A DNA stretch of 60,113 nt, taken from Bacteroidales bacterium. GTDB taxonomy: Bacteria; Bacteroidota; Bacteroidia; Bacteroidales; F082. The DNA lies in assembly GCA_017549805.1 (NCBI GenBank), contig JAFYNJ010000025.1, forward strand, positions 1 through 60,113, written 5' to 3'. Shown here one piece after another: positions 16,951 through 59,395 of the stretch (position 1 is the stretch's first letter; every line of letters starts with the position of its first letter). Below the pieces are notes generated by a model. The model saw only the letters and a list, made by a program, of their open reading frames with translations, made no database searches and was not told where the DNA came from. The position numbers and the translations under genes were made by a program.

Positions 16951-18240
16951 ATGGAAAGGAAACGTATTTACCTCTGCCTGGCCCACATGTCGGACGCAGG
17001 CCTTGAACAAAAGTATATCCAAGAAGCTTTCGACACCAATTGGGTGGTGCCGCTTGGACCGAACGTTAACGGATTCGAGAAAGACCTTGAGGACTTTGTC
17101 AACGACACTTCTCAATTCTCACCTCTCAACTCTCACCTCTCAAAACGTGTAGTTGCCCTCTCTGCCGGTACTGCCGCTGTGCATCTGGCACTGATCGGCT
17201 GTGGCGTGAAGCCTGGCGATGAGGTGCTGGTACAGAGCTTCACCTTCTGCGCAAGTTCCCATCCGATTACCTATCTCGGCGCCACACCCGTGTTCATCGA
17301 CTCGGAGAAAGACTCTTGGAACATGGATCCTGAGCTTCTCGAAGAAGCCATCAAGGATCGCATCGCCAAGACGGGTCGCAAGCCCAAGGCCATCGTTCCA
17401 GTTGCGCTCTATGGCATGCCCTACGATGCGGACCGCATCATGGAGATTGCCAACCGCTATGGGATCCCTGTGGTGGAAGACGCCGCCGAGGGCTTTGGCA
17501 GCCGCTGGAAAGGCCAGGTGCTGGGCACCTTCGGCAAGTATGGCGTGCTCTCGTTCAACGGCAACAAGATGATCACCACCTCGGGTGGCGGTGCACTGAT
17601 TACCGCTAATGAAGATGAGTGGCGTGAAATCATGATGTATGCCACGCAATACCGCGAGAGCTATCCCTACTACCAACATGAGAAAATCGGCTACAACTAC
17701 CGCATGAGCAACATCTGCGCGGGTATCGGCCGCGGTCAGATGACCATCGTCAACGACCATATCAACCACCACAAGCACGTCTTCGAGCTCTACAAGGAAC
17801 TGCTGAAGGACGTTGAAGGCATTGAGGTGCACGGAAATCCCGACGAACGCTACGATTCCAACTTCTGGCTCAATACCATCACCATTGCCCCGGACATCCG
17901 CATAAAAGGGCAGGAGAATGCCTATAAGACGGTGGTCCAGGGCGCCGTCGGCGGTGCTGCCGGTGTCATCCATGTGGCTGAGTCGGCCGTTACCGATTGT
18001 CAGCCCAACGACAACGTGGAAGCGCTGCGTGTCATCCTCGACCAAGCCGGTGTGGAGGCCCGTCCGGTATGGAAGCCCATGCACAAGCAGCCGGTCTATA
18101 AAGATGCTCCTGCATACGTCAACGGTGTTTCGGAAAGCCTGTTCAAGGTGGGTATGTGCCTGCCTTCGGGACCCTATGTCAGCGATGACGACGTGCGCTA
18201 CATCGTGGATTGCATCAAGGGAGCCATTGTGAAGGATTGA
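16951..18240 (+). CDS. DegT/DnrJ/EryC1/StrS-family aminotransferase
   Basis: A 429-residue PLP-dependent nucleotide-sugar aminotransferase. The opening (SDAGLEQKYIQEAFDTNWV, then PLGPNVNGFE), the cofactor region ALSAGTAAVHLAL, PVVEDAAEGFGSRWKG and the PLP-lysine stretch SFNGNKMITTSGGG all fit the family. It probably makes an amino sugar such as a 4-amino-4,6-dideoxy sugar for the polymer, together with the PglC-like transferase at 20260. Residues about 54-66 (TSQFSPLNSHLSK) are an in-frame insertion encoded by a heptanucleotide array (17110-17144), just before the conserved ALSAGT strand. A change of one unit would shift the frame. Confidence 0.88.
   Translation: MERKRIYLCLAHMSDAGLEQKYIQEAFDTNWVVPLGPNVNGFEKDLEDFVNDTSQFSPLNSHLSKRVVALSAGTAAVHLALIGCGVKPGDEVLVQSFTFCASSHPITYLGATPVFIDSEKDSWNMDPELLEEAIKDRIAKTGRKPKAIVPVALYGMPYDADRIMEIANRYGIPVVEDAAEGFGSRWKGQVLGTFGKYGVLSFNGNKMITTSGGGALITANEDEWREIMMYATQYRESYPYYQHEKIGYNYRMSNICAGIGRGQMTIVNDHINHHKHVFELYKELLKDVEGIEVHGNPDERYDSNFWLNTITIAPDIRIKGQENAYKTVVQGAVGGAAGVIHVAESAVTDCQPNDNVEALRVILDQAGVEARPVWKPMHKQPVYKDAPAYVNGVSESLFKVGMCLPSGPYVSDDDVRYIVDCIKGAIVKD
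17110..17144 (+). repeat. Heptamer array in the DegT aminotransferase gene
   Basis: Five 7-nt units (TCTCAAT, TCTCACC, TCTCAAC, TCTCACC, TCTCAAA) lie in frame within the coding sequence. The encoded segment is absent from the usual family alignment position between the first helix region and the PLP-fold strand. The same unit recurs in the broken manC gene 1.9 kb downstream. Confidence 0.85.
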
Positions 18241-18744
18241 GCCGTAATGAAAGAACAAAACGACATGAACAATCACCATGTGGTCATTATGGCAGGCGGT
18301 ATCGGAAGCCGTTTCTGGCCGTTGAGCACTCCCGAGTTTCCCAAACAGTTCATCGACATCCTTGGCTGCGGACGCACGCTCATCCAACTGACGGTGGACC
18401 GCTTCCAAGGCGTTTGTCCTAAAGAGAACTTCTGGGTGGTGACCAATGCCGCATACGTGGAGATTGTGCGTCAGCAGCTGCCCGAGATTCCCGAAACGCA
18501 TATCCTTGCAGAGCCTGCTGCACGCAACACGGCGCCATGCATTGCCTGGGCCTGCTGGCGCATCAAGGCGGAAGACCCGAACGCCAACGTGGTAGTCACC
18601 CCATCCGATGCGGTGGTTATGAATCCTGAAGAATTCCGCAGGGTGATCGGGAATGCCTTGGATTTCACGACAACAAACGATGCCATCGTCACCATCGGCA
18701 TCAAACCGACGAGACCTGAGACAGGGTATGGTTATGTGGAGATA

Positions 18745-18799
18745 GTTGAGAGTTCAGAGTGTAGAGTTGAGAGTCAGTTTAGAGTTGAGAGTGGTGAGA
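18745..18799 (+). repeat. Degenerate GTTGAGA-type heptamer array inside manC
   Basis: Imperfect 7-nt units (GTTGAGA, GTTCAGA, GTGTAGA, GTTGAGA and relatives) are the reverse complement of the TCTCAAC family. They encode an in-frame insertion of about 18 residues rich in E, S, V and R between the conserved TGYGYVEI and VREFKEKPD segments of the guanylyltransferase. Confidence 0.75.
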
Positions 18800-18970
18800 T
18801 TAGGAGAGTGCGTGAATTTAAAGAGAAACCTGACCGTGATACTGCTGAGAAGTACCTCAAAGCAGGTAACTATCTGTGGAATGCCGGCATCTTCGTGTGG
18901 AACGTCAAGACCATCACGCAGAGCATTACAACCTACAAACCCATCTTGGCTTCCCAAATGGATCAAATTG

Positions 18971-18997
18971 TCACCTCTCACCTCTCACCTCTCACCT
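18971..18997 (+). repeat. TCACCTC heptamer array at the manC frameshift
   Basis: Three perfect TCACCTC units plus six of seven bases of a fourth. The reading frame of manC enters in one phase and the conserved C-terminus continues in another. Adding one unit gives an uninterrupted reading through SHLSPLTSHLETIFPQCEK, which supports copy-number change as the cause. Confidence 0.85.
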
Positions 18998-19362
18998 TGA
19001 AACAATATTCCCCCAATGCGAGAAGATCTCCATCGACTTCGCCGTGATGGAACCTGCTGCCGCCGATGGTAAGGTATATACCCATCCCGCTGATTTCGGA
19101 TGGAGCGACCTGGGCAACTGGGCATCGCTGTATGACAAGCTTCAGCACGATGACAACGGCAATGGGGGTGTGGGCAACATCCATTTCCACGAATGCCATG
19201 ATTGTGTGGTGCATGTCGAGGATGCCGAGAAGGTGGTGCTTCAGGGCTTGGACCACTACATCGTGTCCATGAAGGATGGAAGGCTCTTGGTTTGCAAGCG
19301 TAGCGAGGAACAGCGCATCAAGGATTTCTCGGTGCAGTAAAACACCCTCGCTTGGATTTTTA

Positions 19363-20259: not shown

Positions 20260-20895
20260 ATGGGTCTTTTCGGACGCTGCATAAAATTCATTTTCGACCG
20301 GGTGATGGCGCTCCTGGGGCTGCTGGCCTTGGGATGGCTGCTCATCGCCATCGGCATCTGGATCAAGGTCAAGATGCCGGGATCGCCTGTCTTGTATGTC
20401 CAAGACCGTATTGGACGTCACGGGAAACGTTTCAAGATCCATAAGTTCCGCACCATGTATGAGGACAACGAAGGTCCCAGTGTGGCCTATCCCGTGGAAG
20501 GGAGGGTCACGCCGCAAGGCGAGAAGCTCCGACGTACCAAGCTCGACGAACTGCCTGAGCTTTGGGACGTGCTCATCGGCAATATGAGCTTCGTGGGGCC
20601 GCGTCCCGACGTGCCAGGCTATGCCGACATGCTGCAGGGCGACGACCGCGTGGTGCTGGAGATGCGTCCGGGCATTACGGGACCGGCAACGCTGAAATAC
20701 AAGCACGAAGAGAAACTGCTTGAGGATTATGTGACCAAAGCCAAGGCGGAGGGCGACACACGCTCCGAAACGGAGATTGCCCTCTGGTATAACGACAATG
20801 TGATCTATCCCGATAAAGTGCGAATCAACTGCGAGTATTATCGGAATTATTCATTTTTCAAAGACATCAAGCTGATTTTTAAGACCGTTTTCTGA
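20260..20895 (+). CDS. Initiating sugar-phosphate transferase (PglC/WcaJ C-terminal type)
   Basis: A 211-residue monotopic phosphoglycosyl transferase. A hydrophobic re-entrant N-terminus (RVMALLGLLALGWLLIAIGIW) precedes PVLYVQDRIGRHGKRFKIHKFRTM (split here; the 'KFRTM' motif is diagnostic), LDELPELWDVLIGNMSFVGPRP and RPGITGPATLKYKHE. It moves a sugar phosphate, commonly an N-acetylated diamino or hexosamine sugar, onto undecaprenyl phosphate to start glycan assembly at the inner membrane. The size equals the catalytic core only, as in PglC. It likely acts with the DegT aminotransferase and the flippase of this locus. Confidence 0.9.
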   Translation: MGLFGRCIKFIFDRVMALLGLLALGWLLIAIGIWIKVKMPGSPVLYVQDRIGRHGKRFKIHKFRTMYEDNEGPSVAYPVEGRVTPQGEKLRRTKLDELPELWDVLIGNMSFVGPRPDVPGYADMLQGDDRVVLEMRPGITGPATLKYKHEEKLLEDYVTKAKAEGDTRSETEIALWYNDNVIYPDKVRINCEYYRNYSFFKDIKLIFKTVF

Positions 20896-22094: not shown

Positions 22095-25011
22095 GCAGTT
22101 GGACATCTTGAATATCGCTTCCATTGAGAAGGCTACTATCGACTTTGAAAAAGCACCGTTGAAAGACAGCGATGTGTTTCTCATTACAGGCAAGATCGGC
22201 GCTGGAAAGTCAACCATCCTGGATGCCATCTGTTTGGCCCTGTATGGCACCACGCCGCGTATCAATGTGGGCATTCGCGAAAAGATTGAAGCCAACGATG
22301 ACGGACTCACCGGCCGTGATCCAAGGCAGTTGATGCGACAACATACCGGTGAGGCATGGGCTCGCTTGGTGTTTGATGGAACCGATGGCAACAGCTATGA
22401 GGCGGAATGGCAAGTGCAACGCGGAACGAGAAAGAAACCCACTTCGGCTATGGATGCCGATGTGTGGACCCTCAAGAACTTGACTACAGGTGAAGTGCTC
22501 GCCGGTAGCACCAACAAGGACAAAGGCGTCCGTGAAGCCATCCAAAAGGCTGTGGGACTGGATTTCGACCAGTTCTGCCGCACCACCATGCTGGCCCAGG
22601 GCGAGTTTACCAAGTTCCTGAAAAGCGACGAGAAGGAGAAAGCCGCCATCCTGGAGAAAATCACTGGGACCAAAATCTATTCGAAAATTGGTGTCAAGAT
22701 CTATAACATCACCAAAGAAAAGCGGGATGCCTTGAAGCAGCAAACCGACAAGATGAGCGGCATCAAGCTGTTGACACAAGAGGAAATCCAGGAGAAGAGC
22801 GACAGGATCAAGGAAATCGGGGAGAACAGCAAGGTGCTCGACAAGGAGTTGGAACAGGCCTTGGAGGCGCGTCGCGACTTGAAGGAAGTGGAAGAATGCC
22901 AAGCGGAAATCGATCGTTTGGCCAAAGAGATTGGCGTTCAGCTCAAAGAGCAATATGTTGTGGGCCTTAAGGGCAAAAAAGGCCTGGAAGATGGTATTCA
23001 ACGCCTGAAAGACCAGCAAAAAACCGTTTCCGACAGGTTGGAACTTCAGAAGGAGAAGTCTGGCGTATATGAACAAAGCCAGACCATCATCCAATTGCTG
23101 AGGACCATCTATTCGACCCAACAGCAAATCCAGCAGAAGAAGCGGGGTTTGCCTGAAGTGTCGTGCGCTGAGCAAGAGACAGCCTTGAAGGCCGACGAGG
23201 AACGGTTGAAAGCCTTGAACCTGCCTGCCTTAAGGACGCAGAAAGAAACACTGACCAAGACCGTCAATGAGTTGCATAACCTTCAGATCCGGTTGGGATC
23301 ACTGTCAGTTCAAAACGAGAAACTCCAAGAGTCTGAGCAACAAAACAAAGAGCTGTGGACTGAGATGGAGCAGCTTGAACGGGAGTTGCCGGTTCATCAG
23401 GAAAAGCTGAAGGCAGGGAAGGAGTTGCTGGCTTCGTTGGAGACGCTCAAGAACATGAGTGCCCAAACCGTGGATCAATGGGCCAAACAAATCCGAGCCA
23501 CCCTGAAAGAGGGTTGCACATGCCCGGTTTGCCAACAAACGCTAAAACAGGCGCTTCCCGTGGAATCGGAGTTGGACAAAGCCTATCAGGACCATCTGAA
23601 GAAATACGATGATCAGAAACTTGCTGTTAACGACTTGGAAAGCGGGATGAACAAGGCGAATGCCAATCTTGAAGCCAAGAAACGCCAACATGGACTGAAT
23701 GATGCAAACCTGACGAAATTCCGCGAGGACTTGCAACGGGAAGTACAGAAGTTCTTGGAGGATGCCGCCAAGCATGGGATACAAACGATGCCCGAAGCGA
23801 AAGAAAAGCTTCAGACGCTCAAGCAGGCCAAAGAAGACGAGGCCTTCCAGCTGGGGCTGCGCATTACCGACGCCGAAGGCTTGGAGCGACAGGTCAACGA
23901 GAAACGGACACAGTTGAATCAGCTGGCTGCATTGGCTGAGTTGGAGAAGAGTGTCGTTGATTTGGGCCATGAGGTGGATACCTATCTTGGCAAGGATTTA
24001 ACATGGCCTGTGGATTGGCACACTGACATAACCGCCTTTGCCAATCATCTGAAAGAGCATGCCAAGCAGTACACGGACGACAAAGAATTATCCAAATCGC
24101 TTGAAAACCAACTGAGAGAGAAGGATAAAATGCTTCAGGAGGTGTATGAGATCCAGTCGAGGATTGTCGGCATGCAATCGGATTGGAGGGACTTGGAAAC
24201 AGACGAGGTTCAAGCCATGGAGCGTTTGGAGACCTATTGGAACGGCCTTCATGCCCAACTGGACACCAAACGGCAGCTGAAAGCGGCTTCCGAACAGAAG
24301 AAATTGCAGGCCCAACAGCGTTTGGAGGCCTTGCAGGTGAAAGATACACCTGAGGCGTTGGATGCCAAGATCGACGATGTGAAGGCTCGTAACAACGCCT
24401 TGAAAGAGGAGGGTACGCTGTTGGTCAAGGCCTTGGAGGATGACGCTGCCCAAAGGAAGGACAAGGAGGCCTTGCAGGAACGCATCGACAAGATGAGCGA
24501 AGAAGTTGCACAGTGGAAGACCCTTGACGATTATTTTGGAAGTGCCGATGGCAGTAAGTTCCAGAAGATCGCCCAAAGTTTCATCTTAGGCAACCTGTTG
24601 CTCTCAGCCAACAACTATCTGCAATCGCTGCATCCGCGCTATAGTTTGGAGGTGGTGCCGGGCACCCTGCACATTTCGCTGGCGGATGCCTACCAAGGCT
24701 ATGCCACCCGATTCGTCTCTACCTTGAGTGGTGGCGAGAGTTTCCTGGTGTCGTTGGCATTGGCATTGGCCTTGGCCGATATCGGGCAGAACCTCGCTGT
24801 GGACACTTTGTTTATTGACGAGGGCTTCGGCTCTTTGAGTGGCAATGAGCTGACAAACGCCATCAACACCTTGCGCGCCTTGCATCGTTCCAATGGACGC
24901 CGTGTAGGCATCATCAGCCATATCGATGCCGTAAAGGAGAACATCCCTGTACAGATTCAAGTGATACAAGAAGGGCATCACTCGAGCAGTCTGGTGAAAG
25001 TTGAAAGTTGA
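22084..25011 (+). CDS. sbcC: Nuclease SbcCD subunit C (SMC-like ATPase)
   Basis: A 975-residue Rad50-type ATPase. The N-terminal Walker A GKIGAGKSTILDAICLALYG (about residues 36-55) is followed by DQFCRTTMLAQGEFTKFL. Two long coiled coils flank a zinc hook CTCPVCQQTL near residue 480. The C-terminus has the ABC signature TLSGGESFLVSLALALALA and Walker B DTLFIDEGFGSL. ATG 22084 is chosen over GTG 22081 because of the adjacent SD site. The last residues (VKVES) and stop codon are encoded by a heptamer array shared with the end of the convergent glucan-synthase gene. Confidence 0.95.
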   Translation: MKIRQLDILNIASIEKATIDFEKAPLKDSDVFLITGKIGAGKSTILDAICLALYGTTPRINVGIREKIEANDDGLTGRDPRQLMRQHTGEAWARLVFDGTDGNSYEAEWQVQRGTRKKPTSAMDADVWTLKNLTTGEVLAGSTNKDKGVREAIQKAVGLDFDQFCRTTMLAQGEFTKFLKSDEKEKAAILEKITGTKIYSKIGVKIYNITKEKRDALKQQTDKMSGIKLLTQEEIQEKSDRIKEIGENSKVLDKELEQALEARRDLKEVEECQAEIDRLAKEIGVQLKEQYVVGLKGKKGLEDGIQRLKDQQKTVSDRLELQKEKSGVYEQSQTIIQLLRTIYSTQQQIQQKKRGLPEVSCAEQETALKADEERLKALNLPALRTQKETLTKTVNELHNLQIRLGSLSVQNEKLQESEQQNKELWTEMEQLERELPVHQEKLKAGKELLASLETLKNMSAQTVDQWAKQIRATLKEGCTCPVCQQTLKQALPVESELDKAYQDHLKKYDDQKLAVNDLESGMNKANANLEAKKRQHGLNDANLTKFREDLQREVQKFLEDAAKHGIQTMPEAKEKLQTLKQAKEDEAFQLGLRITDAEGLERQVNEKRTQLNQLAALAELEKSVVDLGHEVDTYLGKDLTWPVDWHTDITAFANHLKEHAKQYTDDKELSKSLENQLREKDKMLQEVYEIQSRIVGMQSDWRDLETDEVQAMERLETYWNGLHAQLDTKRQLKAASEQKKLQAQQRLEALQVKDTPEALDAKIDDVKARNNALKEEGTLLVKALEDDAAQRKDKEALQERIDKMSEEVAQWKTLDDYFGSADGSKFQKIAQSFILGNLLLSANNYLQSLHPRYSLEVVPGTLHISLADAYQGYATRFVSTLSGGESFLVSLALALALADIGQNLAVDTLFIDEGFGSLSGNELTNAINTLRALHRSNGRRVGIISHIDAVKENIPVQIQVIQEGHHSSSLVKVES

Positions 25012-25029
25012 GAGTTGAGAGTTTAGAGG
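24995..25029. repeat. Heptamer array supplying both convergent stop codons
   Basis: Five 7-nt units (TGAAAGT, TGAAAGT, TGAGAGT, TGAGAGT, TTAGAGG). The sbcC stop TGA (25009-25011) and the reverse-strand stop TAA of the glucan synthase (25023-25025) both lie inside the array. Confidence 0.8.
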
Positions 25030-28000
25030 GTTACTAGATGTTCTTGGCCGTCATCGACTAAGTCGATGGTGGTAGGTTCGACAGTTTCCTTGCGTTCATA
25101 CTTGATGACGTAGGTGCTGCTGCCAAAGCGGTAGCGGACGGTGAAGCCGTTCCAGTCGGAGGGCACATGCGGCGTGATCGTAAGCTTGTCGCCTTCCTTG
25201 TGGAAGCCCAGGATGTTCTCGATACCCGTCTTGTAGGCCCATGAGGCCGATCCCGTGTACCATGTCCAACCGCCGCGGCCTGGATGCTGCGGATTGCTGT
25301 AGATATCGGCTGCGATGCAGTACGGCTCCACTTTGTATTTGAGCACATCGGCTAGCGACTGGGTGCGGTGGATCGGGTTGATGAGTGAGTAGAGGAAGTA
25401 AGCCATGTCCTTGCGGCCTTCCTTGACCTGGGCCATGATATACCACATGGCGCCGTGGGTGTATTGGCCTCCATTCTCGCGGACACCTTCAGGATACTGC
25501 ATGATGTAGCCGGGATCGTCGGCCGAGTTCTTGAAAGCGGGCGTGAGAAGCTGGATGATCTCGTGCTCGCGGTTGACGAGTCGTCCGTCAGTCTCGCGGA
25601 AGATGGAGTTCTTCTGCTCGGGTGTGGCGACATCTGTGAGGATACTCCAAGCCTGAGAGATCAAGTCGATTTGGCACTCGGTGTTGTTGCGTGAACCCAT
25701 CGGGTCGCCGTTGTCGAAGAAGGCGCGGAGGAACCAGAAGCCGTCCCAGGCCTTTTCTTGCAGCGCCTTGACCAGCTTGTTGCGGAATTGTGACAACTCC
25801 TCGCAATAGCTGAGGTCGGCATCGGGCATCTTTTGGGTGATTTCCTCCATCTTTGGCAGGAGATCGCACAGGAAGAAGGCCACCCAGACGCTCTCGCCCT
25901 TGCCTCCGACACCGACGCGGCTCATGCCGTCGTTCCAGTCGCCACAGCCCATCAATGGGAGACCATGCGCACCTATTCTGCTCATGGACCTGTTGATGGA
26001 ACGGCGCAGGTGTTCAAACAAGGAGGCTTTGTTCTCGGAAGTCGTGTAATGGACGCAACGCTCTGCATCGCCTGCAGCGAGCTGTTCGGCTTGGCAGAAA
26101 GGCACCTCTTCCGTGAGGATACTGAGGTCGCCCGTGATGCTGATATATTGGTAAGTCACATAGACGAGCCACAGATAGTCGTCGCTGAAGGTGGTGCGGG
26201 CACCGAGTTTCATGCTCTCATGCCACCAATGCAGCACGTCGCCTTCGGCGAACTGGTGTGCTGCATGGTCGAGGATCTGACGGCGTGCGTAGCCCGGATC
26301 GCTGTAGAGGCAGCTCATCACGTCTTGCAGCTGGTCGCGGAAGCCAGTGGCGCCGCCGACCTGGTAGAAGCCGGCGCGGGCAAAGAGACGGGAGGCATAG
26401 ACTTGATAGAGATACCAGCGGTTCAGCATGTAGTTGAACGACTTGTCGGGTGTCTCCACCTGGATCGTGCTGAGCTTGTCGTCCCAGAAACGTACCACCT
26501 TGTCGAATTCAGCGTCAATCATCGCTTTGGTATAGTGGCTCGATTGGCGTTTGCCATCTTCTGGCACTGCGATGATGAAGGCGATGGCGCTTTCGCCGTT
26601 GGCCGGTACTTTCACCGTCATGCCAAGACGTTTGCGGTTCGGGTATTTCAGCGAATAGTCGAAGCCCTTGCCGTCCATGGCATCGCTGACCGCCGTGAGT
26701 TGCACCCATGTGTCGCGGTACAGGTCGTGATAGACGTTGCGGACGAAGATGCTGTTGGAGGCCTCATCCCATTCGGAGTAGAGGTAACGGGCCGTCTTCT
26801 CTTCGTTGTTGCCCAACACGAGCTTATAGACCATGTCGAGTTGCACATCGAGTTCTTCCTTGGTCTTGTTCTCAAGGATGATCTGGTAGTATTTCTCAAG
26901 GCGTTCGGTGGCGACAAACACACGGACTTTGACATTGAGTTCGTCATACTGTGCATCGAAGGCGGAGAAACCTTGACCGTGGCGTGCCGTGGCGGGAACA
27001 AACTGTTTCTTGTTGATGAGCAGCATCTCAGAGGCGTTGTCGCGGACGATGTCGTTGCTCCAGCTTGTGAGCTTGAACTGCTGGGCGTTGTGGGCAAAGG
27101 TAAAGCCTGCCATGGTAGAGCTGACGATGCATCCAAAGCGTGGGTTGGCGATGACGTTGATCCACGGCATTGGAGTGTTGGTGTTGGTCACCACATAGTC
27201 GCGTCCCTCATTGTCGAAACCTCCATATTGGTTGTAGAAGTCGAGCGAGCTCCATACATGGAACTGGGCGCTGGGCTTCATCACAGGGTATTCCACCTTA
27301 TCCTGATACTTCTGGTTGACGGTCTCCAGCCGTTGCAGCTGCTGCTCGATGCGTTCGTGGTTGTTGAAGTCGATGCGTGCCACGGTGCGGAGCAAGATGC
27401 GCTCTTCCTCGCTGATTTCGTTGCCGTTGAGGATGAACACTTTGCCGGTTTGCTCATGTGAGACCCAGAGATGCTCCGTATTGGCCATGTTGCGGATAAA
27501 ATGGGTGAGGCCGTCGTGGTCGTTGCCAGGCACGTCGTTGATAAAGACGAGATCGAGCACCATGCCGTGCACCTTGTAGTATTCGAAAGCGCGCAGCATC
27601 TCCTTGGCGAATCCCGACTTGTTGATGTCGTCGATTTCCATCAAGACGATAGCATGGTCGCCGCTGATGCCGAAACGCCACAGGCCGTTCTGCGAGAGGG
27701 TGTTCTTGGCCAACAGCTCCTGACGCTGGTCGCCGAAGGTGGCCGTCTGGAGGATGTATTTCGAGATGCTGTTGTAGAGGCGCATCTGCGAGCCTTTCAA
27801 CAAGGACATGCCGGTGCGCATGTTGTTGAACACGGAGGATTTCTTGAAGGCGTCTTCGATATCCACCGAGTTGCGGTATTGCTCCGCCAGTTGGAAGAGC
27901 TGTTCCTTGGCTTTGGCAAATCCTGTGATGATGAAAGCCGAGACGGCTTTGCCTGCCGGGATATGGATACGGCGCCGCATGCTCATGATCGGGTCGAGGG

Positions 28001-31000
28001 TGGTGCCAACGGTGTTGCTCAAGGTTCGATGGTTGTCGATGACGTGGGCATGGCGAATGCTGCCTCCACGGCCAAGGAACTTGATTCTCGACGTCTCATA
28101 TTCCACCAAGTTGGAGTTGACGATATTGAAATTGGATGTTTCGTTAGAGAACTCTGGTTGGTCCACAAAGAGTTTGTGGAGTACATAATAGTAAACGTCC
28201 TGTTTGTCTTGCGACGGCTTGCTGAAGATCAAGGCCTCGTGCTCGTTGTCGTATTCGCTGAGGATCTTCATGCCGTTGAACACACGGTGTCCGGCATCCA
28301 CTTCGCGCGGTGCCATGACAACTTCACCGTAGCTGGTGATTTCAAGATCGACATCCACATCGCTGGTGTTGGTGAAAGTGAAGCGGCGGATCTCGGCGAA
28401 ATAATCTTTGACGACGGTGACTTCGGTTTTGGTCTCGATCTCGTCATCCACACGCATGAAGCTTACCTTGTCGGAAGCGAAGCTGACACGGTATTGCGAC
28501 GGCATCACGTCGAGCGGGGAGTAGGTGTTGCACCAAAGCTTGTCGTTGCGCAGATTCCTTATATAGAGATAGGTGCCGTGATGGTCGGCAGTGATCTTTC
28601 TGTAACGGTTGATGAGGATATTGCGGTAGCGTGAGAAACCTGAACCGCGGTCGTTGAGCAGCACGGTGTAGAGGCCGTTGCTGACGACACCGATCTCCGG
28701 CACGTTGGCAATGCCGTCATAGTCGCGTGCGTCGCTCTCGGTTTGCACCTTGGAGTATTGGTAACGCTTGTATTGTGTGACTTTCAAATCGATATAAGGC
28801 TGAACCTGTGCCTTTTCTTTCAGCAAGGTCTCCATGGACTTGAAGACGGGCTCCTGCATGAAGAAGCGTTGTAGGCAATGGTCGCCGAGATAGTTGGCGA
28901 GGGAGGCCAGAATCATGCCCTGATGGTGTGCGTAGTGGGCGTACACCGGCACGTGGTCGTCTTCGTCGTAGCTCTCATAGAAGCCCATGTCGTCATACAT
29001 ATTAAGCTTCTTGAACCGCTGTAGGTTGTCATACACCGCCTTGTCGTTGACGCTGATGGATAGCAGGGAACTGTATGGCGAGATGACGATACGGTCGGGC
29101 GTGGTGTTCTGGAACTTGAGGTATGGCACGCCAAAAGCATGATACTTGTAGTTCTGGGCATCATCCAGCTCGTTATATGCCGTCTCTGAAATACCCCAAG
29201 GCAATTCTTGCTTCTTGCTTCTTCCTTCTAAATTCTTAATAAACGCCTTCTGCGCTCTCACTGCGAAACTGTACGTCTCGTCCATGAGGGTGTGCTTGTA
29301 GGTGGGCAGGAAGATGAGCGGCATGAAGTATTCGAAGAGGGTGCCGTACCACGATGCCACGCCCTTGTAGCCCTTGTACTGGACAAGGGTCTTGTCGAGG
29401 CAGAACCAATGCTTGTAAGGCGCATCGCCTTGGGAGATGGTGAGGAAGCTGGTAAGACGGGCCTCCGATGCAAAGTTGTTGTAATGGTAGGGCAGTAGGG
29501 CATGTGCGCCATAGTCGTAGCCGATGCTGAACACATCCAATTCGGGATTATACAGTTTTGAGAAATCCGTCTCCTCAATCAGCTTATTAACCCTCTCAAG
29601 CAACTTTCCGTTTTCCGTTTTTCGTTCTCCGCTTAAAAATCCCTTCAGCGTATAAAGGCACGCCACGAAGTTGCCGCTATCACAGGTGGAGATGAAGAAA
29701 TTCGGCAGCGCTTGAAGTGTGTTGACATGGTACCAGTTGAACAGGTGTCCGTTCCATTTTTCCAACTTCTCAATGGTGTCGATGACATGGCCGAGTCGAT
29801 CCACGGCTTCTTCTTTGGTGATGAAGCCAAGCTCTGAGGCGGAAATGATGGACGTTATGGAGTAACCGATGTTGGTCGGCGAAGTCTTGTAGTCGGCCTT
29901 CTTCTCTCGGTTGAGCTGATAGTTGTCGGGAATCAGGTAATGGGTCTCTTCAGTGATTTGGCTGTCGAAGAAATGCCAAGTGTCTTTGGCCAGTTTCTTG
30001 ATTTCCTCTGTCTCGTTGGCAGTAAGGTTCTTCTTGTCTTGAGGGAATTTCTTGCCGAGCCAGAACATGAGGAAGGGGGCTCCGCACCAGGCCACCACAC
30101 AGAAGATCAAGGCGATCAGTCCGAGGACGCTGCCGGGGCCGAGGATATAGAGCACAATCAGGATGGCAGAGGCGACATAGTTGAACCAGAATTTGCCGAG
30201 ATAGTCGCCGAGGGTGCCTTTGGTGCTCTTGGCGGCTTCGTCGCTGGTGATCCAGTTGAGGAGGTTCTTATGGCTGAACCATAGGCGGTAGCAGGCGCGC
30301 ACCAAGGCGTCGGTGTACATCCAGGCTTCTTTGGGAAGCAACGCGAACTGCACGAAGGAACGGTAGATGATCACCCGGAAACCACGCATCAAGGTGGCGT
30401 AGTAGTGATATCGTTTGCCGAAGCTGGGCAGTTTGGTGATTTGTCCTAAGATGAAGAACACGATAGGGCTGGCCACAGCGATCAGCGCCACGAGCACATA
30501 CCAGAAGGGGGAGATAGTGAGGAGTGAGGAGTTGGGAGTTGGGAGTTGGATGGCGAAGCCGAAAAGGATGACCACCATCAAAGCCAAGCTCAAAACGGAG
30601 CGGCGCAGGTTGTCGAAGATCTTCCAACGGCCGATGGTGTTGACTTGATTCTTGACTTTTTCGCCTTTCTCGTTGCGCACCTTGTTGCGCAGCCATCCGA
30701 TGATCTGCCAGTCGCCGCGGGTCCAGCGGTGGTGGCGCTTGGCATCGTCGATGTAGTTGGACGGGTTGTCGTCGAAGAGTTCAAGGTCGTTGATCAATCC
30801 GCAGCGGATATGGCATCCCTCGATGAGGTCGTGACTGAGGATGAGGTTTTCGGGGAAGGTGCCTTTCAAGACCTTTTGGAAGACCTTCAGGTCATAGATG
30901 CCCTTGCCGCAGAAACTGCCTTCGTTGAAGATGTCCTGATACAGTTCAAAGGAGGCGGTGGTATAGACGTCGAGACCACCCAAGCCGGCGAAGAGTTGGG

Positions 31001-32681
31001 CATAGCGGCTCTTGTTGGTGACTTCCACATCCACGTTGACACGAGGCTGCATGATGCCATATCCGGCGTTGACGCGTTTGCCGTCGGGCGATAGCTGGGC
31101 GCGGTTCAGAGGGTGTGCCATGGCACCGATGAGTTTCTGTGCGGAATAAAGCACCAACTCCGTATCGGTGTCCAGGGTGATGATGAACTGGATTTCCGGC
31201 ACGGCCAACTGCTGCCATGCACTGATGGTCTCGCAGCGGAAGCGTTTCTGTTTTTCGGCTTCGGTAGTGTTGCCTAACACGAGGTCGTTGAAGTGCAGGA
31301 TGGCACCGCGTTTGCGCTCATGTCCCAGCCAGCAGTTTTCACCGTCGCTCCAAGCACGTTTTCTATAAACGAAGTTGAAGATGGGAGCGCCGTATTTCTC
31401 GTTGAGTTCCTTGACTTTGGCAAGACCTGCCTCTACCACTTCATTGTCCCAAGGCATGTCTTCGTTGGGACCGGCTGCGGCGTCACCGATAAGGGTATAG
31501 TATAGGTTTTGTGGACGGCTTTCCAAGCGTTGTCCCTCGCTGGCGCGGTTGATGTTGGAGAGGTAATAGACTTCCAGCTGTTCCAGTAACTCCACGGTTC
31601 TTGCCTTGTTCTTCAAAATGGTCGGCATGATGACCATGGTGGCGTATTCCTTGGGAATCAAGCCGTCCTTGAACTTAATCTTGAAGGTGTTGACGGGTTT
31701 GTGGATCTTATAAAGCAGCTGGTTGAACAGGTCGATGATGATCTGGCTCATGGGCACCCACATCAAGATGGTGAGGATGATGGTGAGCCAAATGTCACGC
31801 GTGGAGCCGAGTCCGAAGGCCCAACAGGCAAAGCCGAATGCCAAGCCAAGCGATGCCAGCACCACAATCCAAACATACCAATGGGCACGGGCGTTCCATT
31901 TTTTGGGTGGAAACAGCTGCCATCCCACATGTTCGCCTTTCTCGTCGGCCTTGGCCACCAGTTCCTTCACTAACTCATATTCCGTCTTCCGTTTTCCGTC
32001 TTCCGTCTTCCGCTTTGCCAGTCGTGTAATCTTGGCCCGGTAGTCGTCCTTGGTGCGGTCATACATCTGGTCGTACATGTCTGCCTTCTCTTCCTTGAGC
32101 ATCTTCTCAGAATAGCTCACACTGTCGATGAGTTCCGATACCGGCAGTTTGGTCATCTTCTTCAAGGTGTTGAAGAGATTCATCATCATCAGGTTTTGAC
32201 GAGCGGCCAAGTCCAGTTTCTCCATATCGGCCTGGGCACGGTCGGTGGGAGAGTAGTGGTAGGCATTATCAGCCTTCAGCTGTCGGCACAGCGTTGCCAG
32301 GTCGTTCAACAGGGTGCACTTCATCAAAGGGAGCAGCGCGCAAACCTCAGGATAGGAAAGGTAGTCTTTTTGTTCGTCCTGCACCTGAAGCAAGTGGTTG
32401 AACAGCATGGTCTTGTCAAACTGATAATGGCAGCGGATCAGGAAATCATGAAGTAATTGCTCAAGATACTTCATGCGGGGACCTTCCAATCTCTTGAAAT
32501 CCTTGCTTTGAAGGTCGATCTTCAGCACTTTTTCCTGTTCGCTGATCATGTAATAATTGTCAAGAACCCATTCGTTGGTGCTGCCCACGAGGCGTTGCGA
32601 CTTGGTTTCTTCAACAAGTAGGAGATAGTAATCAGTAATGGTCTTTATGCTTTCCTTGAAAGTCTTGTAGGTGCTTTTCAT
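25023..32681 (-). CDS. Cyclic beta-1,2-glucan synthase-like protein (NdvB/ChvB type)
   Basis: A 2552-residue inner-membrane protein with the NdvB/Cgs layout. An N-terminal helical region is followed by TM helices (about 267-318). A glycosyltransferase core has TLDTDTEL near 504 and RHHRWTRGDWQ further on, and more TM helices lie around 700-750 and 850-910. A glycoamylase-like domain has GISETAYNE (about 1165) and MYDDMGFYESYDEDD. A GH94 phosphorylase-like C-terminal half has GISGDHAIVLMEI, GGATGFRDQLQDVMS, GCGDWNDGMSRVG near 2250 and GRGGWTWYTGSASW. Such enzymes make and trim cyclic beta-1,2-glucans. Four heptamer arrays are read in frame as linkers. Its ATG overlaps the radical SAM stop codon (ATGA). 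Confidence 0.85.
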   Translation of the reverse strand: MKSTYKTFKESIKTITDYYLLLVEETKSQRLVGSTNEWVLDNYYMISEQEKVLKIDLQSKDFKRLEGPRMKYLEQLLHDFLIRCHYQFDKTMLFNHLLQVQDEQKDYLSYPEVCALLPLMKCTLLNDLATLCRQLKADNAYHYSPTDRAQADMEKLDLAARQNLMMMNLFNTLKKMTKLPVSELIDSVSYSEKMLKEEKADMYDQMYDRTKDDYRAKITRLAKRKTEDGKRKTEYELVKELVAKADEKGEHVGWQLFPPKKWNARAHWYVWIVVLASLGLAFGFACWAFGLGSTRDIWLTIILTILMWVPMSQIIIDLFNQLLYKIHKPVNTFKIKFKDGLIPKEYATMVIMPTILKNKARTVELLEQLEVYYLSNINRASEGQRLESRPQNLYYTLIGDAAAGPNEDMPWDNEVVEAGLAKVKELNEKYGAPIFNFVYRKRAWSDGENCWLGHERKRGAILHFNDLVLGNTTEAEKQKRFRCETISAWQQLAVPEIQFIITLDTDTELVLYSAQKLIGAMAHPLNRAQLSPDGKRVNAGYGIMQPRVNVDVEVTNKSRYAQLFAGLGGLDVYTTASFELYQDIFNEGSFCGKGIYDLKVFQKVLKGTFPENLILSHDLIEGCHIRCGLINDLELFDDNPSNYIDDAKRHHRWTRGDWQIIGWLRNKVRNEKGEKVKNQVNTIGRWKIFDNLRRSVLSLALMVVILFGFAIQLPTPNSSLLTISPFWYVLVALIAVASPIVFFILGQITKLPSFGKRYHYYATLMRGFRVIIYRSFVQFALLPKEAWMYTDALVRACYRLWFSHKNLLNWITSDEAAKSTKGTLGDYLGKFWFNYVASAILIVLYILGPGSVLGLIALIFCVVAWCGAPFLMFWLGKKFPQDKKNLTANETEEIKKLAKDTWHFFDSQITEETHYLIPDNYQLNREKKADYKTSPTNIGYSITSIISASELGFITKEEAVDRLGHVIDTIEKLEKWNGHLFNWYHVNTLQALPNFFISTCDSGNFVACLYTLKGFLSGERKTENGKLLERVNKLIEETDFSKLYNPELDVFSIGYDYGAHALLPYHYNNFASEARLTSFLTISQGDAPYKHWFCLDKTLVQYKGYKGVASWYGTLFEYFMPLIFLPTYKHTLMDETYSFAVRAQKAFIKNLEGRSKKQELPWGISETAYNELDDAQNYKYHAFGVPYLKFQNTTPDRIVISPYSSLLSISVNDKAVYDNLQRFKKLNMYDDMGFYESYDEDDHVPVYAHYAHHQGMILASLANYLGDHCLQRFFMQEPVFKSMETLLKEKAQVQPYIDLKVTQYKRYQYSKVQTESDARDYDGIANVPEIGVVSNGLYTVLLNDRGSGFSRYRNILINRYRKITADHHGTYLYIRNLRNDKLWCNTYSPLDVMPSQYRVSFASDKVSFMRVDDEIETKTEVTVVKDYFAEIRRFTFTNTSDVDVDLEITSYGEVVMAPREVDAGHRVFNGMKILSEYDNEHEALIFSKPSQDKQDVYYYVLHKLFVDQPEFSNETSNFNIVNSNLVEYETSRIKFLGRGGSIRHAHVIDNHRTLSNTVGTTLDPIMSMRRRIHIPAGKAVSAFIITGFAKAKEQLFQLAEQYRNSVDIEDAFKKSSVFNNMRTGMSLLKGSQMRLYNSISKYILQTATFGDQRQELLAKNTLSQNGLWRFGISGDHAIVLMEIDDINKSGFAKEMLRAFEYYKVHGMVLDLVFINDVPGNDHDGLTHFIRNMANTEHLWVSHEQTGKVFILNGNEISEEERILLRTVARIDFNNHERIEQQLQRLETVNQKYQDKVEYPVMKPSAQFHVWSSLDFYNQYGGFDNEGRDYVVTNTNTPMPWINVIANPRFGCIVSSTMAGFTFAHNAQQFKLTSWSNDIVRDNASEMLLINKKQFVPATARHGQGFSAFDAQYDELNVKVRVFVATERLEKYYQIILENKTKEELDVQLDMVYKLVLGNNEEKTARYLYSEWDEASNSIFVRNVYHDLYRDTWVQLTAVSDAMDGKGFDYSLKYPNRKRLGMTVKVPANGESAIAFIIAVPEDGKRQSSHYTKAMIDAEFDKVVRFWDDKLSTIQVETPDKSFNYMLNRWYLYQVYASRLFARAGFYQVGGATGFRDQLQDVMSCLYSDPGYARRQILDHAAHQFAEGDVLHWWHESMKLGARTTFSDDYLWLVYVTYQYISITGDLSILTEEVPFCQAEQLAAGDAERCVHYTTSENKASLFEHLRRSINRSMSRIGAHGLPLMGCGDWNDGMSRVGVGGKGESVWVAFFLCDLLPKMEEITQKMPDADLSYCEELSQFRNKLVKALQEKAWDGFWFLRAFFDNGDPMGSRNNTECQIDLISQAWSILTDVATPEQKNSIFRETDGRLVNREHEIIQLLTPAFKNSADDPGYIMQYPEGVRENGGQYTHGAMWYIMAQVKEGRKDMAYFLYSLINPIHRTQSLADVLKYKVEPYCIAADIYSNPQHPGRGGWTWYTGSASWAYKTGIENILGFHKEGDKLTITPHVPSDWNGFTVRYRFGSSTYVIKYERKETVEPTTIDLVDDGQEHLVTL
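29204..29238. repeat. TTCTTGC-type heptamer array in the glucan-synthase gene
   Basis: Five units (TTCTTGC, TTCTTGC, TTCTTCC, TTCTAAA, TTCTTAA), in frame on the minus strand near residue 1152, encoding a basic stretch around EGRSKKQE just before the glycoamylase motif. Confidence 0.65.
29605..29632. repeat. TTTCCGT heptamer array in the glucan-synthase gene
   Basis: Four units (TTTCCGT twice, TTTTCGT, TCTCCGC) encode SGERKTENGKLL near residue 1020 on the minus strand. The ERKTENGK peptide is also produced by the array at the end of the 49149 gene. Confidence 0.75.
30516..30550. repeat. AGTTGGG/AGTGAGG heptamer array in the glucan-synthase gene
   Basis: Two AGTGAGG units, two AGTTGGG units and AGTTGGA. 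On the coding strand they read LPTPNSSLLTIS, forming the turn between two transmembrane helices near residue 716. Confidence 0.8.
31980..32014. repeat. TTCCGTC heptamer array in the glucan-synthase gene
   Basis: Five units (TTCCGTC, TTCCGTT, TTCCGTC, TTCCGTC, TTCCGCT) encode the hydrophilic KRKTEDGKRKTEYE linker near residue 228, just before the first transmembrane helix. Confidence 0.85.
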
Positions 32682-49148: not shown

Positions 49149-49574
49149 ATGCATTCTTGTCCCATCCAAATCCGCATGAGCGACCTTGACCCCTACAACC
49201 ATGTGAACAACGGGTCGCAATGCAATTACTTCGACATGGGTCGAAGCCGCTTTTTCGAAGATGCTTTCCAAGAGAAGATCGACTGGCTCACCTTCAAGTA
49301 TGTGCTGGTTCATGTCGACATGGACTTCAGGCTGCCGATCCATTTCCACGACGAGCTGGTTTGTGAGTCGGCCATCCTTGAGGTCGGCAATTCGAGCTTT
49401 AAGATGGTCCAACAGCTTGTGGATCAACGTACTGGAGAGATAAAGACCCTCTGCTATGCCGTGGTGGTCTATTTCGACCGCGATGCAAATAAATCGGAAA
49501 GGATTCCGGATAGGGACAGGAAGATGCTGGGGAAGTGGAAAACGGAAAACGGAGAACGGAGAACGGAAAGCTGA
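49149..49574 (+). CDS. Hot-dog fold acyl-CoA thioesterase
   Basis: A 141-residue 4HBT-type thioesterase: IRMSDLDPYNHVNNGSQCNYFDMGR (residues 8-32, split) carries the Asp/His/Asn active-site motif, followed by YVLVHVDMDFRLPIHFHDEL. The role would be acyl-CoA hydrolysis. The last dozen residues (WKTENGERRTES) and the stop are encoded by a heptamer array and are probably a late extension rather than part of the fold. Confidence 0.8.
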   Translation: MHSCPIQIRMSDLDPYNHVNNGSQCNYFDMGRSRFFEDAFQEKIDWLTFKYVLVHVDMDFRLPIHFHDELVCESAILEVGNSSFKMVQQLVDQRTGEIKTLCYAVVVYFDRDANKSERIPDRDRKMLGKWKTENGERRTES

Positions 49575-49592
49575 AAGTTTAGAGTTTAGAGA
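49537..49592 (+). repeat. Eight-unit heptamer array at the thioesterase 3' end
   Basis: Units GGAAAAC (twice), GGAGAAC (twice), GGAAAGC, TGAAAGT, TTAGAGT, TTAGAGA follow without interruption. Two of the window's heptamer families (TTCCGTT-type and TCTCAAC-type, both in reverse complement) are joined here in a single array. Confidence 0.85.
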
Positions 49593-58712: not shown

Positions 58713-59363
58713 ATGAACAAACAGATTACATTAGAGCAGGCCGTTGAGAAGGTTCACGACGGCATGACCATTATGATCGGTGGTTTCCTCGGCGTGGGAA
58801 GTCCAGTTCAAATTATCGACGCTCTCGTCGCTAAAGGCGTGAAAGATCTTACCATTATTGCCAACGACACCGCTTACGATGAAGTGGCTCACGGCAAGTT
58901 GGTGACCAACCACCAAGTGAAGAAGGCCATCGTGTCGCACACTGGCACCAACAAGCAGACCGCCCTCCAGAAGAACGAAGGCACTTTGATCGTGGAATAC
59001 GTACCTCAGGGCACCCTCGCAGAGCGCATCCGCGCCTACGGTGCAGGTCTCGGTGGTGTGTTGACTCCCACGGGCATGGGCACCATCATGGCTGACGGAA
59101 AGCAAGTGGTCAATGTGGACGGCAAAGATTACCTCCTCGAGAAGCCTCTGAAGGCCGACATCGCCTTCCTGCGCGCCAACATCGTCGATGAGTTCGGCAA
59201 CATGGTGTTCCTGGGCACCACCAACAATTTCAACCCGCTGATGGCTACCGCCGCCGACTATGTGGTGGTCGAAGCCGAAAAGCTGGTTCCCGTTGGCGAA
59301 ATCAAGCCCGAGTGCGTGCATGCCTCCGGAATTTATGTTGACGGAATCTATGTCGAGAAATAA
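58713..59363 (+). CDS. atoD: Acetate/butyrate-acetoacetate CoA-transferase, alpha subunit
   Basis: A 216-residue class I CoA-transferase alpha subunit: TIMIGGFLGVGSPVQIIDAL near the N-terminus (the G-rich CoA loop), then YVPQGTLAERIRAYGAGLGGVLTPTG (about residues 88-113, split) and AFLRANIVDEFGNMVF. Together with a beta subunit it swaps CoA between butyryl-CoA or acetoacetate and acetate. The beta subunit does not follow directly; kal and kce do, so the partner must lie to the right or elsewhere. First gene of the operon, driven by a consensus promoter. Confidence 0.88.
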   Translation: MNKQITLEQAVEKVHDGMTIMIGGFLGVGSPVQIIDALVAKGVKDLTIIANDTAYDEVAHGKLVTNHQVKKAIVSHTGTNKQTALQKNEGTLIVEYVPQGTLAERIRAYGAGLGGVLTPTGMGTIMADGKQVVNVDGKDYLLEKPLKADIAFLRANIVDEFGNMVFLGTTNNFNPLMATAADYVVVEAEKLVPVGEIKPECVHASGIYVDGIYVEK

Positions 59364-59395
59364 CTCCTAACTCCTAACTGCTAACTCCTAACTAA
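59361..59395 (+). repeat. TAACTCC heptamer array after the CoA-transferase gene
   Basis: Units TAACTCC (twice), TAACTGC, TAACTCC, TAACTAA. The first three bases are the stop codon of the CoA-transferase gene, and the array fills nearly the whole 37-nt gap to kal. Confidence 0.85.

Follow-up and report, generated by a model that had tools for sequence, protein, structure and literature searches.

The window, the whole stretch of 60,113 nucleotides analysed here (contig JAFYNJ010000025.1 of the Bacteroidales bacterium assembly GCA_017549805.1, lineage F082), contains a gene for mannose-1-phosphate guanylyltransferase, manC, whose N- and C-terminal halves lie in two reading frames that meet at a 7-bp tandem array, TCACCTC x 3.9. 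This array is one of many with a 7-bp period in the genome, and two further genes, asd and a sulfatase-family gene, are split at arrays of the same unit. The assembly comprises 2.73 Mb in 33 contigs, with a listed completeness of 100% and contamination of 7.58%; the window is its contig C28. Other genomes, contigs and loci are referred to by G, C and L numbers where needed, and the features are listed in Table 1.

Reading frames of the manC locus

The two pieces of manC complement each other on profile TIGR01479 (467 positions), the N-terminal piece covering positions 4-228 and the C-terminal piece positions 237-340. Likewise, the solved ManC structure 2x5s was matched at 5-211 and 226-327, respectively, and by Pfam most of the nucleotidyl transferase domain falls within the N-terminal part. 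In a short ManC, the halves of the GMP domain share one frame, which was not the case here. The preliminary description of this DNA, made from the sequence alone, had placed the meeting point of the two frames in the array, and Tandem Repeats Finder (TRF), the list of open reading frames (ORFs) and the TIGR01479 coverage agree with it. Codons start at 1 mod 3 in the N-terminal frame and at 0 mod 3 in the C-terminal frame, which puts the downstream half in the -1 frame. The break has the size that one unit makes, 7 being 1 mod 3, and the arithmetic of the preliminary description was confirmed. The locus shares one feature with simple sequence repeat (SSR) contingency loci, in that the repeat lies within the gene, its unit is not a multiple of 3 and the number of units sets the frame.

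The ORF in the C-terminal frame runs open through the junction array. On the coding strand (TCACCTC)n reads SPLTSHL in all three frames, and the opposite strand has a stop. The exact 21-mer (TCACCTC)x3 occurs at 10 places in the genome, which form 8 separate arrays. The unit equals the anti-Shine-Dalgarno core of 16S rRNA, for which no role was found. The genome has one manC copy, as judged from a search with the N-terminal part (E<=1e-30), and two further nucleotidyltransferase matches, on C15 and C17. In the genome, no match to gmd exceeded the family cut-off; a standard route from manC to GDP-fucose is therefore not apparent.

Table 1. Features of the manC window and of the two other split genes. 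Coordinates are window positions unless a contig is named.
Feature	Location	Strand	Basis or remark
DegT/DnrJ/EryC1 aminotransferase gene, upstream of manC	16951..18240	+	ORF list, Pfam
Heptamer array, in frame, inside the DegT-type aminotransferase gene upstream of manC	17106..17143	+	TRF, Pfam; coding frame identical on either side
manC N-terminal part, 266 aa, stop 50 bp beyond the junction array	18247..19047	+	ORF list, Pfam, profile and structure matches
Second manC array, AGTTGAG family, in frame, loop after ETGYGY	18744..18792	+	TRF
Junction array TCACCTC x 3.9 in the manC linker	18971..18997	+	TRF: period 7, 100% match
manC C-terminal part, -1 frame	18999..19340	+	ORF listed as 18876-19340; conservation from about 19005
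Predicted sugar transferase, downstream of manC	20260..20895	+	Label from translation read by eye
Gene-end array TGAAAGT/TGAGAGT	24995..25023		TRF
2552-aa ORF with four heptamer arrays, frame kept	25023..32681	-	Two arrays unchanged or nearly so in G033
Gene-end arrays GGAAAAC / AACGGAG / AGTTTAG	49537..49591		TRF
Intergenic TAACTCC array	59361..59393		TRF; same site in G033 with TAACTGAA-like copies
asd, single-copy, split in two frames at AAAGGTG/TCACCTC array	C8 274522-275624 (L025 14522-15624)		
Sulfatase-family gene, split at TCACCTC array	C7 52973-55380 (L153 12973-15380)		PF00884 1-156 and 173-299 of 301

manC in related genomes

The relative set consisted of 109 loci (L030-L138), and both manC halves were in one frame in 107 of them (90 by motif test and 17, with variant motifs, by eye). 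The remaining two, L056 and L057, failed the N-terminal motif and lie outside the count; a looser parse read manC in 105 of the 109. Ruminant-gut Bacteroidales assemblies dominate the nearest named relatives (best 80 of 592 loci), and Prevotella ruminicola KHT3 ranks in the top ten; the source is thus most likely an uncultured Bacteroidales bacterium of rumen type. An order-wide search matched 142 of 393 genomes at E<=1e-100, the own genome included. The own match ends at residue 236 of 354, and every other match listed extends to residue 349 or further. In the same search, G313 had two stops inside its match. In the search with the N-terminal part, the matches in G016 (C66) and G046 (C65) were flagged for stops. 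Stops flagged in G007, G029 and G014 were discounted, all three genes being open from the AGGIGSR motif onward. The match in G033 is just 51% identical and is therefore of no use as a manC comparison.

Heptamers at the linker were found in 3 of the 105 parsed relatives: L059 and L065 (P. ruminicola KHT3) pass the array threshold, and L060 carries degenerate heptamers. The gene is open in all three, and with them the idea of a linker array confined to the own genome was rejected. An ordinary short linker was found in G003, G008, G016 and G236. The loop after ETGYGY, where the own gene has its second array, carries heptamer arrays in 6 of the 105 relatives, with six different units. G003 also has a counterpart of this AGTTGAG-family array, 18 bp shorter by a count made by eye. 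In L049 this loop holds, in frame, a palindrome (CATTGCGAG...GAAGCAATCC), which we take to be REP-like (repetitive extragenic palindromic), where relatives have heptamer arrays. The same palindrome was seen at array sites at C15 15002 in comparison with G033 and at G033 C7 104244 in comparison with the own genome.

Nonsynonymous divergence (dN) was 0.09-0.15 in both halves of manC, with synonymous divergence (dS) from 0.9 to saturated, similar to intact relative pairs (L062 gave no value). Purifying selection is thus apparent in each half, and together with the profile coverage this upholds the earlier statement that both halves are conserved. The preliminary description had also allowed for fixed decay. 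Old fixed decay is unlikely, as neither half shows relaxation. A recent, fixed inactivation of manC in the lineage would accord with a broken frame in the one genome examined for the species and with the single copy, but no second disabling change was seen and both halves are conserved, and we regard such a loss as very improbable.

Heptamer arrays across the genome

Arrays were counted as runs of at least 10 matched positions at period 7, and a looser set required at least 9 matches. The window contains 11 period-7 runs, compared to 0.1 expected by chance (1 run in ten third-order Markov simulations, made for the window), and 0-1 runs at each of the other periods 4-6 and 8-13. The survey of the own genome covered a 653-kb sample, i.e., a quarter of the genome, and yielded 74 period-7 runs, whereas the remaining periods between 4 and 13 gave 0-5 runs each; simple scaling gives about 300 such runs in the whole genome. 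The sister species G033, which has 80.7% DNA identity to the own genome over 142 kb, had 41 period-7 runs in 500 kb. Across the window, the own sample and G033, each other period from 4 to 13 gave 0-6 runs. In G011, of the same genus, no period-7 run was found in 140 kb, and G003 had 1 in 60 kb.

Among the runs of the looser set in the 653-kb sample, 30 different heptamer units were present, TAACTGA not being one of them, and in 81 of 93 runs one strand of the unit has 5 or 6 purines among its 7 bases. TCACCTC / GAGGTGA contains no GGG and so lacks the four G3 tracts of a quadruplex. After merging, 77 arrays remained: predicted genes contain 30 of them, and the other 47 are intergenic or sit at gene ends. 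Arrays lie in asd, in OadG-like and U32 peptidase-like genes (the latter two named by eye) and at many gene ends. The longest exact array seen, 49 bp of CAACTCT at C17 24105-24171 (L157), lies at a gene end, 5 bp before the next gene. A hard limit on array length from k-mer collapse was not seen, arrays of up to 33 and 49 bp having been assembled.

Genes split at arrays

The gene asd is split in the same manner as manC. Its pieces cover positions 5-173 and 224-343 of NF011456 (346 positions), and PF02774 gave no match in the own genome other than this pair. The own genome has an open dapA-type gene. In G033, asd is open and 7 bp longer, with other heptamers at the array site. In G016, asd is also not open after KGVNQLKA (C94:6875-7375, L142), without a heptamer array, perhaps owing to a deletion or a contig error. 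A broken asd in a draft genome alone is therefore no proof of biology. The sulfatase-family gene gives the clearest comparison: in G033 (L213) the array and its site are identical with one unit more, and the frame is open over 817 aa versus 422 and 378 aa in the own genome. A change in unit number between the two species thus sets the frame of this gene.

Frames around the own arrays were classified by a codon-score scan: 23 arrays lie in one open frame, 9 in one frame with a stop between, 22 at frame shifts and 65 in noncoding or strand-changing positions. Among the 22 shifts, three were judged to be split genes (manC, asd and sulfatase), and the other 19 were regarded as gene boundaries, judged by how long each frame stays open, two being checked with Pfam and two by ORF listing. 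Rejected as splits were C8 187266 and C8 134064, which are boundaries (TatD / HflX-like GTPase and PriA / plug protein of the type IX secretion system, respectively). In 500 kb of G033 the scan found 20 arrays in frame, 6 with a stop between and 21 shifts, with one weak candidate; a split in G033 opposite C8 270791 was dismissed as an antisense ORF by codon score.

All three split genes carry TCACCTC on the coding strand, and all have a -1 downstream frame. Genic arrays with TCACCTC in the coding sense were split in 3 of 8 cases, compared to 0 of 22 other genic arrays (Fisher P about 0.014; not all 22 were checked by homology). The shared unit, sense and offset might point to programmed recoding, with ribosomal -1 frameshifting, or else bypassing, at the array yielding full-length products of the three conserved genes. 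As the repeat reads SPLTSHL in every frame, a slip within the array would leave the peptide unchanged. However, the sulfatase array of G033 is in frame without recoding, other coding-sense TCACCTC arrays of the own genome sit in open genes, and stimulators were looked for by eye only. Recoding appears extremely improbable.

Frame keeping and unit turnover between sister species

For 39 own arrays, a counterpart site was located in 900 kb of G033. The length difference between the two species was a multiple of 3 in 17 of 20 genic arrays versus 10 of 19 nongenic ones. The three genic exceptions were asd (-7), sulfatase (-7) and C8 299282. The last, with a local difference of 17 bp, was rejected as a frame break because it is open in both species, and the difference is 18 bp by residue count.

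Some sites were kept with a changed unit, such as CTCTCAA in the own genome versus CTCTCAC in G033 at C8 266681 and TCACCTC versus ACTCCTC at C17 22982; at other orthologous sites G033 had no array. Different heptamers in G033 at C8 266681, 265487 and 319044, C17 22982 and C15 18638 look as if they arose by concerted replacement.

When genes of the own genome were compared, a frame junction was found in 1 of 101 genes, asd itself, and none lay away from arrays. The reverse comparison found junctions in G033 in 2 of 105 genes, neither at an array. The junctions away from arrays were at C6 64310 and C10 17585 in G033 and, in a less strict comparison, at about C7 95660 in the own genome.

Interpretation of the manC array

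The observations above lead us to read the manC array, with moderate confidence, as a member of a genome-wide class of unstable 7-bp arrays, whose present length puts the downstream half of the gene in the -1 frame. The array looks like a by-product of this genome-wide habit, or an assembly miscount, rather than a dedicated switch. According to this reading, the clade would carry short 7-bp arrays between genes, at gene ends and in those protein loops that tolerate them, and the tolerant linker of manC would already have borne a heptamer array in the allele group that includes L059, L065 and L060. A change in length by other than a multiple of 3, in the simplest case the loss of one unit by slipped-strand replication or recombination, would then have shifted the C-terminal half. 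Judging from the frames, a one-unit slip is the likeliest cause; we infer rather than observe it, because the closest array-bearing relative, L059, differs by 25 bp. The resulting truncated ManC is probably inactive, because the conserved SIDFAVME and GWSDLGNW blocks are missing, and the change in the array may be reversible.

Several observations weigh against this reading. The 25-bp difference in the array region from L059 is no multiple of 7, and asd is split although it is single-copy and normally essential and the dapA-type gene is open. Growth without supplements would not be expected of a dominant clone lacking Asd, so at least the asd unit count may be wrong. The exact 7-bp differences from G033 run mostly one way, with the own genome shorter at 4 sites and longer at 1. 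Moreover, the less strict comparison found 2 junctions in 83 genes, asd and that at about C7 95660, which lies away from arrays and had been dropped from the 101-gene comparison by a gene-score filter. The shared unit and offset of the split genes, the one-way differences, the asd split and the 7.58% contamination would also fit a systematic miscount.

Assembly or consensus error must therefore be considered, in which the true sequence would be in frame and a unit would have been dropped in multi-copy perfect arrays, or strains mixed. Besides the points just listed, the draft asd of G016, which is not open and has no array, and the concentration of splits in coding-sense TCACCTC arrays are consistent with it. 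On the other hand, the assembly contains arrays of 28-49 bp at other sites of the own genome, three genes carry AACTCTC arrays of similar copy number without loss of frame, and frames away from arrays looked clean in the 101 compared genes, but for the C7 junction of the less strict run. Error of this kind is a fairly plausible explanation, though less probable than the reading above. Collapse of the repeat in assembly had been named as an alternative in the preliminary description, and it stays plausible in view of asd and the contamination but sits poorly with the longer arrays.

The preliminary description proposed that slipped-strand change toggles manC and, with it, the surface glycan. 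Its general part is supported by the sulfatase, where a one-unit change sets the frame between species; a switch specific to manC or the surface glycan is not, since arrays are widespread and asd, a biosynthetic gene without apparent need for switching, is split as well. A dedicated phase-variation array, selected as an ON/OFF switch for GDP-mannose supply and surface glycan, would be in line with the frame arithmetic, with the three open relatives that have heptamers at the same linker, with the adjoining DegT aminotransferase and predicted sugar transferase genes and with the ON/OFF difference at the sulfatase. The array has just 3.9 units, however, and linker arrays are rare among the parsed relatives. 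In addition, such arrays are common genome-wide, housekeeping genes included (asd and, named by eye, OadG-like and U32 peptidase-like genes), and genic arrays are mostly held in frame. We therefore consider selection for such a switch improbable.

A bolder extension of the genome-wide reading is that interchangeable 7-bp arrays, some hundreds per genome, would form a network in this clade, copying or switching units between sites and encoding the same peptide in any frame. Many genes, housekeeping ones included, would toggle by one unit, which would amount to a largely nonselected, reversible gene loss across the genome, as opposed to a small set of contingency loci. This extension is rather unlikely.

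Relation to known heptamer repeats

Mrazek and co-workers reportedly described long SSRs in prokaryotes, with 7 bp as the commonest class and polymerase slippage as the proposed origin. The period-7 excess found here is similar, but the accessible passages do not describe arrays within coding linkers or units turning over between sister species.

The following comparisons refer to the accessible parts of the papers cited. Haemophilus influenzae has heptanucleotide SSRs, one of which, an (AATTTTG)14 tract within an ORF, is described with a frame shift (PMC2651432). The present arrays resemble these contingency loci in having 7-bp tandem units whose number can break the reading frame. They differ in that they have 3-4 units, occur as many arrays with many units genome-wide and are mostly in frame; surface genes do not seem to predominate among the genes inspected, and the arrays are known from sequence alone. 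Direct repeats of the heptamer TAACTGA occur in Beggiatoaceae, Cyanobacteria and five Bacteroidetes, as a single unit whose near variants are rarely repeated, and the arrays of some Bacteroidetes are missing from near relatives (PMC4679880). Those arrays are likewise dispersed, often by gene starts and in some cases within ORFs (PMC4679880). In contrast, 30 heptamers were sampled here, mostly purine-rich on one strand, and they replace each other at orthologous sites. The GGGAATC / GGGGA(C/T)T arrays of Xanthomonas and Nostoc are genome-wide, prefer four units and lie near gene ends, the longest being at differing genes in two species (PMC4692102). The present arrays are also genome-wide heptamers near gene ends, but their units as a rule lack a GGG tract, and 30 of 77 lie inside predicted genes. 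Heptamer arrays are thus known in other bacteria; in the accessible literature, mostly outside subscription journals, no description was found of this Bacteroidales array class or of manC switching by it.

Implications

If the unit counts are real, some rumen or gut Bacteroidales would hold a genome-wide slippage system with a frame-breaking unit length, and genes would be conditionally lost in part of the population. If they are miscounts, array-bearing genes in assembled genomes may be taken for broken by mistake. In either case, orthologous arrays with changed units suggest a rapid homogenising or replacing process in these genomes.
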